Positions 2,916 through 21,388 of a DNA stretch of 23,758 nt are shown one piece after another. The notes beneath the pieces are model-generated. The model searched no databases and was not told the origin of the DNA. It saw nothing but the letters and a program-made list of their open reading frames with translations. The stretch covers positions 1 to 23,758 of IMG/VR virus record IMGVR_UViG_3300024518_003202, one strand, 5' to 3'. The DNA is from a virus. Position 1 is the stretch's first letter; every line of letters starts with the position of its first letter. The translations under genes were made by a program, and so were the position numbers.

Positions 2916-3455
2916 TTAGTCCTCACTTTCCAAACAGTCCAGGCAGATGGCCGCCAGGCCATCCTCCACGGTAATCACCGGAAACCCGCAGGACTCGCAC
3001 GAGTCCAACACCAGGCCACTCCGGGCCGCCACGCGTTCCACGTCCGTCTTGGCGTTGGTCACCTCCACCTCAATGTGGCCGCCGCCACGCCGATCCCTGG
3101 CCCCCACCATCCACCGGAGAGTTTTTATTACCCGCCACGAGTCGTCCGCGATAACACGGGCCGCGCGGAGTCCGTCCAGGATGGCCTTTAGTTGGTTGTC
3201 CGGATCAAATAATCGATCCGATGGCCGCCAAATTATCAGCTCCACGGAAAGGGGACCGCGCAGAGGTAGCGGTGGGCGGCCACCCTGATTATTGACCGCC
3301 ACCGCCACCTCCTCCTTGAACACCTTACCGGCCTTGGTCAACACCATTCGCATACCGCCGCGCGGACCCGTGAACGGTTTGTAATAGTCGTTGACCGATG
3401 GCGGCCAGGGGAGGCGGTATCGATACACGTACACTCCGGCCGGGTCAATTGTCAC
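2916..3455 (-). CDS. rusA: RusA-family Holliday junction resolvase with C-terminal zinc-ribbon-like tail
   Basis: The 179-residue product has the RusA core: an N-terminal LPWPPSVNDYY motif (residues 15-25) and the acidic catalytic region FDPDNQLKAILDGL (Asp84, Asp86, Asp94). RusA enzymes resolve Holliday junctions and in phages debranch replication intermediates before packaging. Usual length is about 120 residues; here a tail of about 40 residues adds two CxxC pairs (Cys153/156 and Cys171/174), which looks like a zinc ribbon and could bind DNA or a partner. The GTG start at 3455 lies inside the end of the preceding gene behind GGGAGGG. It is the last large gene of the replication block. Confidence 0.9.
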   Translation of the reverse strand: MTIDPAGVYVYRYRLPWPPSVNDYYKPFTGPRGGMRMVLTKAGKVFKEEVAVAVNNQGGRPPLPLRGPLSVELIIWRPSDRLFDPDNQLKAILDGLRAARVIADDSWRVIKTLRWMVGARDRRGGGHIEVEVTNAKTDVERVAARSGLVLDSCESCGFPVITVEDGLAAICLDCLESED

Positions 3456-3738
3456 TGGGCCCTCCCTTCTCCGGTTGCGATGCCAACCAGTGGTCACAAT
3501 GGAGCCAATGGTCCTCCAGGGCCTCCGCCAGTCGTTCGGAGAATCGATCCACGGACGCGGTCAAGTCGTTCGGCTCCTCCTCACTCACGCATGGCGTCCG
3601 CAGAATGTTACAAATGAGACCCCGCAAACGCGTATCGACCAGGCCCAGCAAGTCCGTCATGGCCGTAGTCATTTTGATAGCCTGGCCCAACAAAGGGACG
3701 TCCTCCGGCGGGGCCACGATATGCTTGCGAATACTCAT
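3445..3738 (-). CDS. Hypothetical 97-aa protein
   Basis: The 97-residue product is mostly helical in appearance, with a central LLGLVDTRLRGLICNIL segment and an acidic C-terminal half. No family is recognised. The ATG at 3738 overlaps the stop of the preceding gene as ATGA, and its end overlaps the RusA start by 11 bases, so it is embedded in the replication operon by translational coupling. A regulatory or accessory role in replication is inferred only from location. A longer upstream frame exists, but its extra residues are a Gly-rich shadow of the previous gene. Confidence 0.72.
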   Translation of the reverse strand: MSIRKHIVAPPEDVPLLGQAIKMTTAMTDLLGLVDTRLRGLICNILRTPCVSEEEPNDLTASVDRFSERLAEALEDHWLHCDHWLASQPEKGGPSDN

Positions 3739-4391
3739 AGCGGGCCACCGCCTTCCGCGTCCAGGCAGACTTGGCAGGCCTCCGGGGCCTCCCCGTGCGA
3801 ACACGTGGGGTCCGGCTGGATTAGGTCCGCCAGGTCCGTCTCCCGCTCCGCCACCAGCTCCGCCGCCGCGTTGGCCACGTCCTCCTTGGTGAGTCCGTGG
3901 GGCAAACCCTCCGCCGGTTGCGGATAACGCGCTCCCGCCCCGGTCGCCCCGTAGCTGGCCGCCTCCGCCGCCTTCATGCAAACCGCACACCCGCCCCACT
4001 CGATCCCGTGCGGACAATGGTTCCACGCGTCACTGGTGGCCGCGGGTCTCCCTTGCAAGATGGCCGTGGCCAGCTCCGCTTCCGTCTTGATCTCATGGAC
4101 GCCCGATAGCGGCCCGGACTCCGCCACCGTCTCCTCATGGTCCGCCACCGTCTCCTCATGGTCCACCCCCGGGACCCAGATGGGGCGCGGCGGGTCCTCC
4201 ACTCCCAACCGCGCCGGGTTCAGCAAGTCCATGGCCTCATCCACGGACGCCACCAGGGACTCCGCCGCCTTGCGGATAATCCGTTCCCGGTGGTCCGATA
4301 TCACCTCCCCCTTGAATCGATCCAGGGAGGCCAACAGCTCCGCCTCCGCCGCCGCCATCCGTCGCCCCAGTTGAAAGAATCGTACACTCAT
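3735..4391 (-). CDS. Hypothetical protein with two identical-spacing CxHG...CxxC motifs
   Basis: The 218-residue product starts with a helical region (residues 1-60) and has a tandem heptapeptide DHEETVA x2 at residues 78-91. It then carries two putative metal-binding motifs of the same design: Cys126-x-His128-x6-Cys135-x2-Cys138 and Cys197-x-His199-x6-Cys206-x2-Cys209. Each is short and reads C-P/S-H-G then C-x-V-C, so they probably arose by duplication and bind zinc. I know no named family. It overlaps the preceding gene by 4 bases and couples to the following one by ATGA. Its place among SSB, initiator and RusA genes suggests a nucleic-acid or protein-binding adaptor role. Confidence 0.75.
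   Translation of the reverse strand: MSVRFFQLGRRMAAAEAELLASLDRFKGEVISDHRERIIRKAAESLVASVDEAMDLLNPARLGVEDPPRPIWVPGVDHEETVADHEETVAESGPLSGVHEIKTEAELATAILQGRPAATSDAWNHCPHGIEWGGCAVCMKAAEAASYGATGAGARYPQPAEGLPHGLTKEDVANAAAELVAERETDLADLIQPDPTCSHGEAPEACQVCLDAEGGGPL
4120..4161. repeat. 21-bp tandem duplication within a gene
   Basis: Two exact adjacent copies of a 21-base unit (4120-4140 and 4141-4161) encode the duplicated heptapeptide DHEETVA in the linker of the 218-aa zinc-motif protein. Exact identity suggests a recent duplication or selection for the repeat. Confidence 0.95.
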
Positions 4392-5173: not shown

Positions 5174-5938
5174 TCACTCCCCTTTTTTGAACAGGTCCCG
5201 GATCGCGGCTTGGTCCGGAGTTGGTTGGTTGGAGGCCGGGGCCCCGTTGCCACCTGGCCGTGGTCCGCCGCGTTCCGCGTCCCAGCGTTTCTGCCGTGCG
5301 TTCCACTGGGAGGCCGCCGCCTTCCAATCTTTCATGGCCGCGCCCTTGGCCAGCTTCCACCCACGGGCCTGGTAATAGCTCCAGAAGTCCTCCGGGTCCG
5401 TGGCCGATAGTCCGGCCGTCTCCACGTGGACCTTGACCTGGTCAACAGAGGGGGGGCGGAAGGCGGTCCCCCTCTTACTTCTTACCTTCTTGGTCTTCTT
5501 GGTCTTCTTGTGGTGTGTGTCCGATGGTGTGTCCGATGGTGTGTCCGATGGTGTGTCCGATGGTGTGTCCGATGGTGTGTCAATGGTTGACACACCCTCC
5601 GCCTGGTACTTCTCCCAGTTTATGACGGTCACGAGCGTACATTTTGCAGACGGTTCCATCGTGATGCACTCCAGGTCCACCAGGGTCTGGAGTCTCCGCC
5701 GGAGGGTGTTGACGGATATCCGCAAGTCCGCCGCCAACAGGCGGAGGCGGACCGCATATTGGCCCGCCTCCAACTCCACCACCATCGCATGCGCTCCGAT
5801 TCGCAAGATGGCCTTGCGGGACTTGTGGGACGTCCGCAGGAGTAGGCAACACCACAAGCGCCAAACCCCGTCCCCCGCATCCCAGACGGCGGACCGCTCC
5901 GCCTGCCGCCATAGTTTCACGTATCCGAGTCCGTCCAT
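5174..5938 (-). CDS. Replication initiator / replisome organizer (winged helix plus DnaD-like C-terminus)
   Basis: The 254-residue product has three parts. Residues 1-112 form a winged-helix-type DNA-binding domain (VKLWRQAERSAVW at the start, then a helix-turn-helix around LAADLRISVNTLRRRLQTLVDL). Residues 118-158 form a linker of five DTPS repeats followed by a basic KKTKKTKK stretch. Residues 159-215 match the C-terminal module of phage replisome organizers (FRPPSVDQVKVHV, EDFWSYYQARGW, MKDWKAAASQW). Such proteins bind the phage origin and recruit the host helicase machinery. The linker DNA itself forms a 12-bp iteron array, so the origin may lie inside the gene. The ATG at 5938 follows GAGGCG just after the SSB stop. 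Confidence 0.85.
   Translation of the reverse strand: MDGLGYVKLWRQAERSAVWDAGDGVWRLWCCLLLRTSHKSRKAILRIGAHAMVVELEAGQYAVRLRLLAADLRISVNTLRRRLQTLVDLECITMEPSAKCTLVTVINWEKYQAEGVSTIDTPSDTPSDTPSDTPSDTPSDTHHKKTKKTKKVRSKRGTAFRPPSVDQVKVHVETAGLSATDPEDFWSYYQARGWKLAKGAAMKDWKAAASQWNARQKRWDAERGGPRPGGNGAPASNQPTPDQAAIRDLFKKGE
5473..5510. repeat. Purine/pyrimidine-skewed tract beside the iterons
   Basis: This stretch is almost pure pyrimidine on the plus strand and GA-rich on the minus strand, with a roughly 9-bp periodic unit (CAAGAAGAC-like) repeated about three times. It encodes the KKTKKTKK segment of the initiator. It is less GC-rich than its surroundings and lies directly beside the 12-bp iterons, so it could be the unwinding element of an origin. 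Confidence 0.6.
5515..5580. repeat. 12-bp iteron array, candidate replication origin
   Basis: Five exact head-to-tail copies of gtgtgtccgatg (plus strand) plus a half copy, 66 bp in all, lie inside the replication initiator gene and encode its DTPS linker. In lambda and related phages the origin iterons lie within the initiator gene and bind its product; the same arrangement is inferred here. A skewed tract flanks it on one side and a palindrome on the other. Simple expansion of a linker repeat is the alternative. Confidence 0.8.
5575..5595. promoter_or_regulatory. 9-bp perfect inverted repeat at the iteron edge
   Basis: The arms gtgtgtcaa and ttgacacac are separated by tgg. The left arm begins with the last half iteron, so the palindrome directly abuts the array. 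It may be a binding site for a dimeric initiator or another origin element; function is inferred from position only. Confidence 0.6.
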
Positions 5939-5950
5939 TGTGGAGCGCCT

Positions 5951-6496
5951 CTAGAAAGGTATCTCATCGTCCGATACGTCAACGGATGGCGAGGCCTGGG
6001 CCGGTGGCGGTGGCGGTGGCGGTGGCGTGGCGTCCACCGGGGCCACTCGAATCCCATCCACGGCCCGGCCCTGGTAGTCCACCAGGTCCACGTACAAAAC
6101 AATCTGGCGGCCCTTCCACGCGTCCGTGTCGGCGCCGTGATGGTGGCTAATCATCTGCGCGTTGGTCTTATTCAGAATGAGGCGCTTGGTCTTTCCCACG
6201 AATGTCACCACCCACTTTGTGGCCGGGCCGTTCTTGTCCTGGACCGCCTCCTGGCGGACGTCCTCAATGGTGACCACGGGCCGGTGGCCCCGGATATCAC
6301 TGGCCGCCAGGTAGGCCGATCCGAACATGTCGTTGACGTTTGGCATTGGGTACAACTCCTCATAGTTCAGTGCTAGTAAGTCCGGCCGGACTCCCTTGGA
6401 CCACGGCCAGATAGAAAGTCGTTGCGAGTCCTGGGCGTGGTCCTCCGCCCACTGGGGTCCGTACTCCACCAGTCGCTCGTGGTCCCACGGTTCCAT
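5951..6496 (-). CDS. ssb: Single-stranded DNA-binding-like protein with acidic DDEIPF tail
   Basis: The 181-residue product ends in DVSDDEIPF, the acidic tip by which bacterial SSB proteins recruit replication partners. This is preceded by a poly-proline linker (eight Pro at residues 158-165). The middle (residues 51-155) is beta-rich and compatible with an OB fold: NVNDMFGSAYLAASDI, VVTFVGKTKRLILNKTNAQ, GRQIVLYVDLVDYQGR. It resembles phage SSB-like proteins rather than E. coli SSB. The ATG at 6496 lies two bases after the preceding stop behind GAGGGC; an internal ATG at 6346 with its own GGAG site would give a 131-residue form lacking a Trp-rich N-terminal extension. Both could be made. It lies directly upstream of the initiator gene. 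Confidence 0.82.
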   Translation of the reverse strand: MEPWDHERLVEYGPQWAEDHAQDSQRLSIWPWSKGVRPDLLALNYEELYPMPNVNDMFGSAYLAASDIRGHRPVVTIEDVRQEAVQDKNGPATKWVVTFVGKTKRLILNKTNAQMISHHHGADTDAWKGRQIVLYVDLVDYQGRAVDGIRVAPVDATPPPPPPPPAQASPSVDVSDDEIPF

Positions 6497-6498
6497 GG

Positions 6499-6789
6499 TC
6501 ACGCCCTCATCAGTGCGGCAAACTCGTGGCGCTCCACCTCCCACGCGTGGAACAATGTGGACGCGCGCTTGACATCCTCCCGCTCCCAGACTTCCGCCAG
6601 GTGGAGGATCTCCTGGGGACTAATGTGGAACCGGTCCCGGGCCAGGTCCCCAGCGATACCGGGGTGGCGCTCCACCAGGAGACGGTCCACGATGAGGCCG
6701 CCGGTGGGATGGTCCCAGGGGATCTTGGAGCCACGGGCCAGAGGGACCCGAAAGATGAGATAGAAAACGAAATGGGGATGAGCTGCCAT
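6499..6789 (-). CDS. Hypothetical early protein of 96 aa
   Basis: The 96-residue product starts MAAHPHFVFYLIFRVPLARGS and continues with an amphipathic, charged region (LARDRFHISPQEILHLAEVWEREDVKRASTLFHAWEVERHEFAALM) that is probably all helical. No family is recognised. The ATG at 6789 has a strong GGAGG site seven bases upstream; a further in-frame ATG at 6816 lacks one. It precedes the SSB-like gene by two bases and is likely cotranscribed with it. About 110 bases separate it from the small membrane protein gene upstream; that gap holds a weak inverted repeat (aggccacc / ggtggcct) but no clear promoter. Confidence 0.72.
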   Translation of the reverse strand: MAAHPHFVFYLIFRVPLARGSKIPWDHPTGGLIVDRLLVERHPGIAGDLARDRFHISPQEILHLAEVWEREDVKRASTLFHAWEVERHEFAALMRA

Positions 6790-7094: not shown

Positions 7095-7212
7095 TTCCTC
7101 ACCTGTCGTCAGTTTGATAGACCGCGGGAGTCCGATTGACGACACAGCTCGACGCTGTCGTCAAAGGGATACGCCGGCACCTTGGAGTCCGCGTCAGTTT
7201 GACGACAGATAA
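7095..7212 (-). promoter_or_regulatory. Intergenic control region with TTGACGACA repeats
   Basis: This 118-bp gap between the last late gene and the first early gene carries four copies of a 9-base motif: TTGACGACA at 7136-7144 and 7199-7207 on the plus strand, its complement TGTCGTCAA at 7156-7164, and an eight-of-nine match at 7104-7111. The pair at 7136 and 7164 forms a perfect inverted repeat with an 11-base spacer. An 11-base direct repeat cgtcagtttga also occurs at 7107 and 7192. The layout suits an operator cluster or a second origin-like site controlling the early operon. TTGACG resembles a -35 box but I see no matching -10. Confidence 0.65.
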
Positions 7213-15776: not shown

Positions 15777-17225
15777 TTATGCGCGGACGGCCAGGGACAC
15801 GTACGGACTGTACGTGGCGGACCCGGTCCGGGCCGAAATGGTCTTGGACCACCGTGGCATTCCCATAAGTCGCCAGACGGCCTTGACGGCGGTCAAGTCG
15901 TAGTCAAACCAAAGGTGCATAGACGTGGAGAGATTCGGCCCCAGTGTCTTATACCCAATGAGGTACTGGGAGAAATCGGACAGGAGAATGTCCCCCTTGG
16001 TCCCCAGGGTTTCGCACGCCTGGTGAGGAATCGATGGGCGGCCCAAGATGCTACCGAACGGGGCCCCGGCATAGCTGGACCCCTGGGGTCCGCTGGGCAA
16101 GTAGACGGGCGTGTCCGATGAGGTACCGGCCACCACCATCTTGAGTAACTCCGTCTCGCAATCCTGGTTGAACACCCACGTTGCGCGGCCACGGAAATCT
16201 CCATAGCACGCGCTATACATCTTGGAGATATTTGTGGAGTTGATCGTGGCGGCCGTCTGGCCGGATTCCTTGGCCACGTTTTTAAGGGCGTTGGACGCCA
16301 GTAGGCCTTTCATTTGTCCGGCCCCGGTCCCCTGGAGGACTCCGAAGTCCACCTTCCACCGGAGTTTCTTGCCGATGGTGGCGAACAGGTAAGCGCCCAA
16401 CTGCGCCGCGTCCGCCATCAGCTCATCCGTGACGGGACAGATACACGTCAGCTTGGCCAGGTTCATTCCGGACTGGCCCAGGTTAATCTTGCTTTGCGTG
16501 ATCTGTTTTCCCTCGCCCTCCCAGTAGGCGGTGGGCCCGTTGGTACTCCAAGGCGCGTCCTCATCCACGGGCCAGGCCAGTGCATGATTGACGGGCGTTT
16601 TCTCGCACAGGTCGAATAGGGACCCCTGGGCACCCACGTACTCCATGACCTGGCCGGAGAACTCCGGAGGAATCAGAAAGCCACCGTCCGGTCCGCTTCC
16701 CGTGTTGGCCCAAGTCGTGGGGGCCATGCGGGCCAATCTTTCGTCCGTCTGGGGAGACCCGGGGCGCTGGGCCAGGGAGGCCACCCGCGCGAACTCTCCG
16801 AAGTTATCAAACCCGGCCCGGGGATCGCGGCCCCAGGCAAAGGCCTGGCGGCCAGGTGCCGGGTTAGGATCAGTCCGCCGTCCGCCACCAGCTCCGCCGC
16901 CGTCGCCACCAGCTCCGCCGCCACCAGCTCCGCCGCCACCAGCTCCGCCGCCGTCGCCACCAGCTCCGGCCAGGCGGGCCACGCCACGCTCCAGGACTTG
17001 GATACGCGCCTGGCGGTAGTCGATGTCCTGGTCAATTTGCTCCAGCTCCGCCACCTCCTCGTCCGTCATATCCACGGCCTGGCGGCCCTCAAGTAACTCC
17101 TGGACCCGGGCCCGCATGGTATCCACCTGGCCGCGCAGTGTCGCCAGTTGGTCCTCCGCTCCCGGGACGTCCATCCGCGCACGGCGGTGGAGTGGTTGCG
17201 CGTCGATAATGTTTCGCATGGTCAT
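15777..17225 (-). CDS. Major capsid protein, HK97 fold, with delta-like domain and Gly-rich linker
   Basis: The 482-residue protein begins with a coiled-coil delta/scaffold-like domain (about residues 22-86, EDQLATLRGQVDTMRARVQELLE and similar). A pure Gly/Ala/Asp linker spans residues 87-115. The HK97 capsid core follows from about residue 160 (TGSGPDGGFLIPPEFSGQVMEYV, then WPVDEDAPWSTNGPTAYWEGEGKQITQSKINLGQSGMNLAKLTCICPVTDELMADA). The N-terminal part is presumably removed by the ClpP-like protease encoded just upstream. The ATG at 17225 lies two bases after the protease stop with GGAG ten bases upstream; a GTG at 17231 is the alternative. A terminator follows the gene. Confidence 0.92.
   Translation of the reverse strand: MTMRNIIDAQPLHRRARMDVPGAEDQLATLRGQVDTMRARVQELLEGRQAVDMTDEEVAELEQIDQDIDYRQARIQVLERGVARLAGAGGDGGGAGGGGAGGGGAGGDGGGAGGGRRTDPNPAPGRQAFAWGRDPRAGFDNFGEFARVASLAQRPGSPQTDERLARMAPTTWANTGSGPDGGFLIPPEFSGQVMEYVGAQGSLFDLCEKTPVNHALAWPVDEDAPWSTNGPTAYWEGEGKQITQSKINLGQSGMNLAKLTCICPVTDELMADAAQLGAYLFATIGKKLRWKVDFGVLQGTGAGQMKGLLASNALKNVAKESGQTAATINSTNISKMYSACYGDFRGRATWVFNQDCETELLKMVVAGTSSDTPVYLPSGPQGSSYAGAPFGSILGRPSIPHQACETLGTKGDILLSDFSQYLIGYKTLGPNLSTSMHLWFDYDLTAVKAVWRLMGMPRWSKTISARTGSATYSPYVSLAVRA
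16885..16967. repeat. 15-bp-type repeats encoding the capsid Gly-rich linker
   Basis: Degenerate tandem copies of ccaccagctccgccg lie within the capsid gene and encode GGGAGG-type repeats between delta-like domain and core. Repetitive DNA of this type can change length by slippage, so linker length may vary between relatives. Confidence 0.85.
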
Positions 17226-21045: not shown

Positions 21046-21388
21046 GGCCACGCGCCTCCAGCTCCACCTCCACCTGGTCCCCACCCTTACCGTGTCGCAT
21101 GAGGTGGCAGACCACGCATAGGGACACTACGTTGGACCTCTCGAATATGAGATCTGGGGCCACCATTTGCTCTATCAAATGGTGGACCTCGGTGGCCGGT
21201 ACCGGCCGGTTTGCTTTCGTGCAATCGGCACAGTAGGGGTGGTCCGCCAGGTAGGCCTTGCGCCACCGCCTCCCCTTACGTGACCGCCACCGCTGATTGT
21301 CCTGGCGTGGTACGTGGAGCGCCGCATGGACGTCACAGAACCGGCCCACGATGGCCACGCGCGAACAGTGTTTGCAGAGTCTACTCAT
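21026..21388 (-). CDS. HNH endonuclease
   Basis: The 120-residue protein carries an HNH nuclease core: TEVHHLIEQ (His69/His70), SNVVSLCVVCHLMRHG (Asn86 and His95), with zinc ligand pairs Cys53/Cys56 (YCADC) and Cys91/Cys94. An extra N-terminal CKHC/FCDVH pair (residues 5-21) looks like a second zinc finger. In HK97-type phages an HNH protein encoded next to the terminase supports specific packaging cleavage, so that role is likely. The ATG at 21388 overlaps the stop of the Asp-box gene as ATGA; a GTG at 21397 is possible. Confidence 0.9.
   Translation of the reverse strand: MSRLCKHCSRVAIVGRFCDVHAALHVPRQDNQRWRSRKGRRWRKAYLADHPYCADCTKANRPVPATEVHHLIEQMVAPDLIFERSNVVSLCVVCHLMRHGKGGDQVEVELEARGHEQFTH

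Follow-up and report, generated by a model that had tools for sequence, protein, structure and literature searches.

The segment at positions 5472–5596 is very probably the replication origin of this uncultivated phage, or one of its origins. To judge from its anatomy, it would consist of iterons and an unwinding tract placed inside the linker of the phage's own initiator gene. The analysed window is a linear record of 23,758 bases, a fragment whose minus strand carries the genes of a tailed phage (terminase, portal, protease, head and tail). An origin with iterons inside a gene is of a known kind. The addition made here, by sequence comparison, would be a frame-independent demonstration that linker repeats are DNA elements in a widespread initiator family, in which they are kept whatever the reading frame; the literature search yielded no paper that reports this for the DnaD-like initiators. 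Besides a concrete candidate origin, the analysis offers a simple sequence rule for locating the origins of phages and prophages.

Replication initiator and its linker

The replication initiator gene (5174..5938, minus strand) encodes a protein of 254 aa with a winged-helix N-terminal domain, a linker predicted to be disordered and a C-terminal helical domain. The protein matched phrog_2514 (DnaD-like helicase loader; E 2.6e-19, residues 5–155), and its C-terminal part matched phrog_15768 (E 3.5e-15). According to the Pfam analysis, the DnaD domain (PF07261), present in the A118 and PVL homologues, is absent from the window initiator, so the latter is placed with the DnaD-like phage initiators by its winged-helix domain only. 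This domain covers residues 11–112 (5603..5908, minus strand), with the recognition helix at about residues 76–88. In the AlphaFold model, ten-residue blocks over residues 21–110 have mean pLDDT values of 87–97 and show a winged-helix arrangement, and most of the linker (residues 115–158) was modelled at very low confidence, the basis on which it is predicted to be disordered. The linker peptide reads IDTPS-DTPS-DTPS-DTPS-DTPS-DT. Several of the viral structure matches of the initiator are named replisome organizer, and its nearest folds in the PDB are winged-helix regulators (CadC, CodY; E 0.05–0.2, not significant alone). Searches of viral and genome contigs returned no direct homologue and no close relative of the window initiator; the conservation of its array was judged through distant homologues rather than base by base in a near one.

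Iteron array, inverted repeat and low-stability tract

The iteron array (5515..5581) contains 5.6 direct exact copies of the 12-bp unit GTGTGTCCGATG (GACACACCATCG on the coding strand), namely five exact copies at 5515–5574 and a 7-nt partial copy extending to 5581. No other tandem array in the window scores as high in TRF (134, the next being 99). The preliminary description, made from the sequence alone, had reported five exact copies and a half copy within the winged-helix initiator gene, which agrees with these data; the array lies in the linker between the domains.

The head of the array is formed by a perfect dyad (5574..5596), GGTGTGTCAA-TGG-TTGACACACC, which encodes VSTIDT on the minus strand. 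A perfect 9-bp palindrome had been described at 5575–5595; the palindrome is indeed present, but its size was understated, since the arms are of 10 bp and occupy 5574–5583 (GGTGTGTCAA) and 5587–5596 (TTGACACACC). This is one of only two perfect inverted repeats (arm of at least 10, loop of at most 12) in 23.8 kb. The other lies at 21160–21185, within an HNH endonuclease gene, and has 10-bp arms and a 6-nt loop. On the coding strand the dyad reads GGTGTGTCAACCATTGACACACC; its second arm starts the first iteron and its first arm is the reversed core, that is, one inverted iteron core stands head-to-head with the first direct iteron. The reversed core encodes V-S, outside the DTPS protein repeat. 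When the peptide EKYQAEGVSTI was synonymously recoded with the downstream iterons fixed, a 10-bp arm was reached in 170 of 20,000 recodings (p 0.0085). Dyad symmetry of individual iterons was absent, the units being plain direct repeats with the single dyad at 5574–5596. An extra iteron core, ACACACCA (5511..5518), has a 2-nt offset that takes it out of the DTPS register; by the 8-mer pairs of ACACACCA, the out-of-frame repeat is significant in the window alone (p 0.003).

The array adjoins a candidate DNA unwinding element (5472..5511) of low stability, purine-rich on the coding strand, in which a 9-bp unit is repeated 2.8 times (5486–5510). The 40-mer starting at 5472 has a GC content of 40% versus about 62% for the window, which places it in the bottom 0.7%; its nearest-neighbour energy puts it within the 0.07% of lowest stability. 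The tract is also the window extreme of pyrimidine skew on the plus strand (purine on the coding strand), as expected from the earlier mention of a purine-skewed, less GC-rich tract at 5473–5510. GC skew showed no clear switch at the array and was uninformative for the origin.

The same codons are used in every DTPS unit, which has p = 2.7e-7 by independent codon choice; this value alone is not proof of selection at the DNA level, since recent slippage also yields identical copies. For the same reason the window by itself cannot decide the matter, and a comparison of homologues was needed.

Linker repeats in homologous initiators

Homologues were collected by the DNA-binding domain alone, using tblastn and profile searches, which gave 34 genes. 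The scored region was the 150 nt following the conserved NYxxYQ border, the measure was the number of repeated 8-mer pairs, and the expectation was derived from the same protein synonymously recoded with the gene's own codons. The linkers contained 813 repeated 8-mer pairs versus 135 expected, and windows elsewhere in these genes gave about 24. Out-of-frame pairs numbered 479 versus 25 expected and were individually significant (p<=0.05) in 25 of the 34 homologues, some of which are mutually related, so that the counts are not fully independent. As a control, 168 windows in other genes of the same loci gave 69 pairs versus 60 expected, and 29 versus 26 out of frame. A significant linker repeat was absent in 8 of the 34 homologues.

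The same DNA words recur in different frames. In the Paracoccus gene L187 (unit GATACAGTCGC), GATACAG occurs in all three frames, as does GAACAGCTACC in L191; in O of coliphage mEpX2, TTGTCCAAC is found in three frames and TTGTCCAACGG recurs with an 11-nt period. L132 has GACACTGA in two frames, and its GACACTGACGGG is read as DTDG and later as TLTG. The linker peptides differ completely among the homologues, while the DNA repetitiveness persists with frames shifting. The excess over recoding and the out-of-frame pairs, with no excess in the neighbouring genes, indicate that the linker repeats are kept as DNA; as far as can be read from these sequences, the comparison shows that evolution keeps the DNA repeat and not the protein repeat. 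The preliminary description had asked whether relatives conserve the repeats beyond codon need, and the above counts give a positive answer; the opposite case that it named, a DT-type linker devoid of a DNA repeat, was seen in no homologue examined. Its interpretation of the array is thereby supported.

A repeat coinciding with the window unit in 11 of 12 bases, GATACACCATCG, was noted in L005 (6215) and L009 (3945), where the initiator is distantly related. These two phages are 98.6% identical over 1.5 kb upstream and have 6 and 9 copies, respectively.

When the linker region was searched for its AT-richest 40 nt, this stretch came after the repeats, towards the C-terminus, and was A-rich on the coding strand in all 28 scorable homologues and in the window (29/29 genes). 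This order of parts is supportive and not decisive, because by position alone most genes would show such a placement. Lambda ori has the same succession, and the composition agrees with that of SPP1 oriL. In addition, iteron similarity tracks the similarity of the recognition helix after correction for the rest of the domain, and this apparent link is a small effect (partial r 0.16, permutation p 0.002, 34 genes). Bacillota genes with the helix WSNTKV, for example, have ACGACA-type repeats.

Other explanations of the linker repeats

The array could be a neutral tandem repeat, i.e., a 12-bp unit expanded by slippage in a length-tolerant linker and having no function as DNA. The perfect identity of the copies, the difference between 6 and 9 copies of GATACACCATCG in near-identical phages and the presence of DT-type tandem arrays in many non-initiator proteins would all agree with this. 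Nevertheless, neutrality appears unlikely, because the out-of-frame repeats in the linkers of the homologues are far above expectation and those of the neighbouring genes are not, and the inverted core sits outside the protein repeat. Codon use also argues against it: in initiators, 55 of 69 pairs of adjacent DT units with differing spacers share their Thr codon (0.80; expected 0.33), versus 164 of 269 (0.61) for DT-repeat proteins of other kinds (p 0.004). It is very improbable that selection acts on the (DTPS)n hinge itself, through spacing, phosphorylation or partner binding, with the identity of the DNA as a by-product. A DT pair every four residues does recur in the initiators of unrelated phages, but the complete divergence of the linker peptides under persisting DNA repetitiveness, and the disorder predicted for the linker by the AlphaFold model, speak against selection on the peptide.

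As for the function of the conserved DNA, the repeats could serve as initiator sites for autoregulation, partition or packaging, with the origin located elsewhere in the phage. Since the record is a linear fragment, a further origin could lie beyond it, and in SPP1 a second origin is located far away from the initiator gene (PMC6316719). This explanation is judged very unlikely, since the adjacent low-stability tract is kept in position across the family and the best-studied cases of such a layout, lambda and SPP1, are origins. An origin within the initiator gene is the preferred reading.

Comparison with known origins and proposed mechanism

The ori of phage lambda lies within O and has iterons followed by a 39-bp AT-rich region (PMC6022878), and oriL of SPP1 has repeats and a DUE within gene 38, which encodes a replisome organizer, a second origin being present (PMC6316719). 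A repeat kept as DNA fits iterons with an unwinding element, as in both of these origins. Similarly to lambda ori, the iterons of the window occupy the middle of the initiator gene, where the linker joins the DNA-binding N-terminal domain to the C-terminal domain, and are followed by an unstable tract (PMC6022878). Lambda, however, has four 18-bp iterons, each with a dyad, whereas the window has 12-bp direct units and one head dyad; its unstable tract, rich in purines, has an AT content of 60%, and no loader gene like lambda P was detected among its genes. Since its units have no dyad symmetry of their own, the segment is compared with lambda ori in its way of working and is not filed as one. 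SPP1 oriL, likened here by its published layout, has in common with the window that the initiator gene contains direct repeats and an AT-rich unwinding element. SPP1 differs in having its own helicase and loader and a second origin, neither of which is seen in the window.

The DnaD-like initiators of Listeria phage A118 (gp49), Staphylococcus phage PVL (orf46) and Bacillus phage 000TH010 (gp63) have a homologous winged helix, the NYxxYQ border and a repeat-bearing linker followed by an A-rich tract. The identity with them is about 20–30%, the iteron sequence varies between phage groups, and the window protein has no recognisable PF07261. Origins within replication genes occur in lactococcal phages as well, e.g., TP901-1.

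By analogy with lambda and SPP1, the winged helix of the initiator would bind the 12-bp iterons and the head-to-head pair at 5574–5596. The bound array would strain and melt the adjoining unstable purine-rich tract (5472–5511), and the C-terminal domain would recruit the replicative helicase or the helicase loader. The DTPS linker would then be largely a by-product of iteron DNA at a site where any disordered hydrophilic sequence is tolerated. One DNA stretch thus appears to double as a landing strip for the initiator and a flexible protein hinge, an example of an embedded DNA signal that would dictate protein sequence. The window genes that were searched included no recognisable helicase or loader gene, which is consistent with the use of the host helicase; the incompleteness of this fragmentary record may be an alternative reason.

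Search for related repeats in other phages

When one inverted GAYAC core and three direct ones were used as a search pattern, 17 viral stretches matched, most of them lying within replication-initiator linkers and encoding VSxxDT, as in the window. The arrangement GTRTC-N7-GAYAC at the head of the array was also found in other phage initiators. GAYAC is set by the D-T residues except for one base, so its recurrence alone is no evidence of selection on the DNA, and out-of-frame repeats were used as evidence instead. GAYAC arrays were discarded as a stand-alone signature, as among the matches listed these were mostly in low-complexity proteins. The dyad GGTATCAANNNTTGATACC was likewise rejected as a specific origin marker: it was present in 25 contigs with only 3 independent initiators, and its scrambled control in 13 contigs, never within an initiator. 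On its own the dyad lacks specificity in these searches, and a universal motif is not claimed.

Two or three exact GGTATCAANNNTTGATACC dyads per initiator linker were observed in L194 (7584–7602 and 7770–7788) and L200 (5183–5285). The GC-rich contigs L013 (~7154–7182) and L016 (~5077) contain direct and inverted GATACC repeats in a 6-bp register, which in L013 fall within a replication-like protein.

A more general proposal, put forward tentatively and more doubtful than the origin itself, is that diverse DnaD/O-like phage initiators across bacterial phyla might share a few origin half-sites, such as the GAYAC 12-bp register with the head dyad GTRTCAA-NNN-TTGAYAC, which would force the DTxx and VSxxDT linker peptides. 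The half-site might then be predictable from the recognition helix, and phage origins would become callable from sequence alone.

Gene neighbourhood and other repeats of the window

The gene immediately 5' of the initiator (5951..6544, minus strand) matches phrog_21613 (function unknown). Its product has a proline run followed by the C-terminus DVSDDEIPF, a tail similar in sequence to the acidic tip seen in single-stranded DNA binding proteins; searches for relatives of this gene found none. An SSB gene is located immediately 5' of the initiator in L138, L139 and L146. The same replication/recombination region of the window encodes a RusA-like Holliday junction resolvase (2916..3497, minus strand; phrog_34, E 1.3e-28; Pfam RusA). 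Rfam and tRNA scans of the window gave no match.

Among 80 loci sharing the tape-measure gene, none had the window initiator nearby, and a profile search likewise gave no match; the replication module is thus regarded as mosaic.

Two further repeats were observed in the window. A gene of unknown function has a 21-bp repeat (4120–4171, 2.5 copies) encoding VDHEETVADHEETVA. Tandem repeats of 15 bp (CCGCCGCCACCAGCT; 16875–16968), which encode a glycine-rich linker, occupy a place in the front part of the gene for the major head protein.
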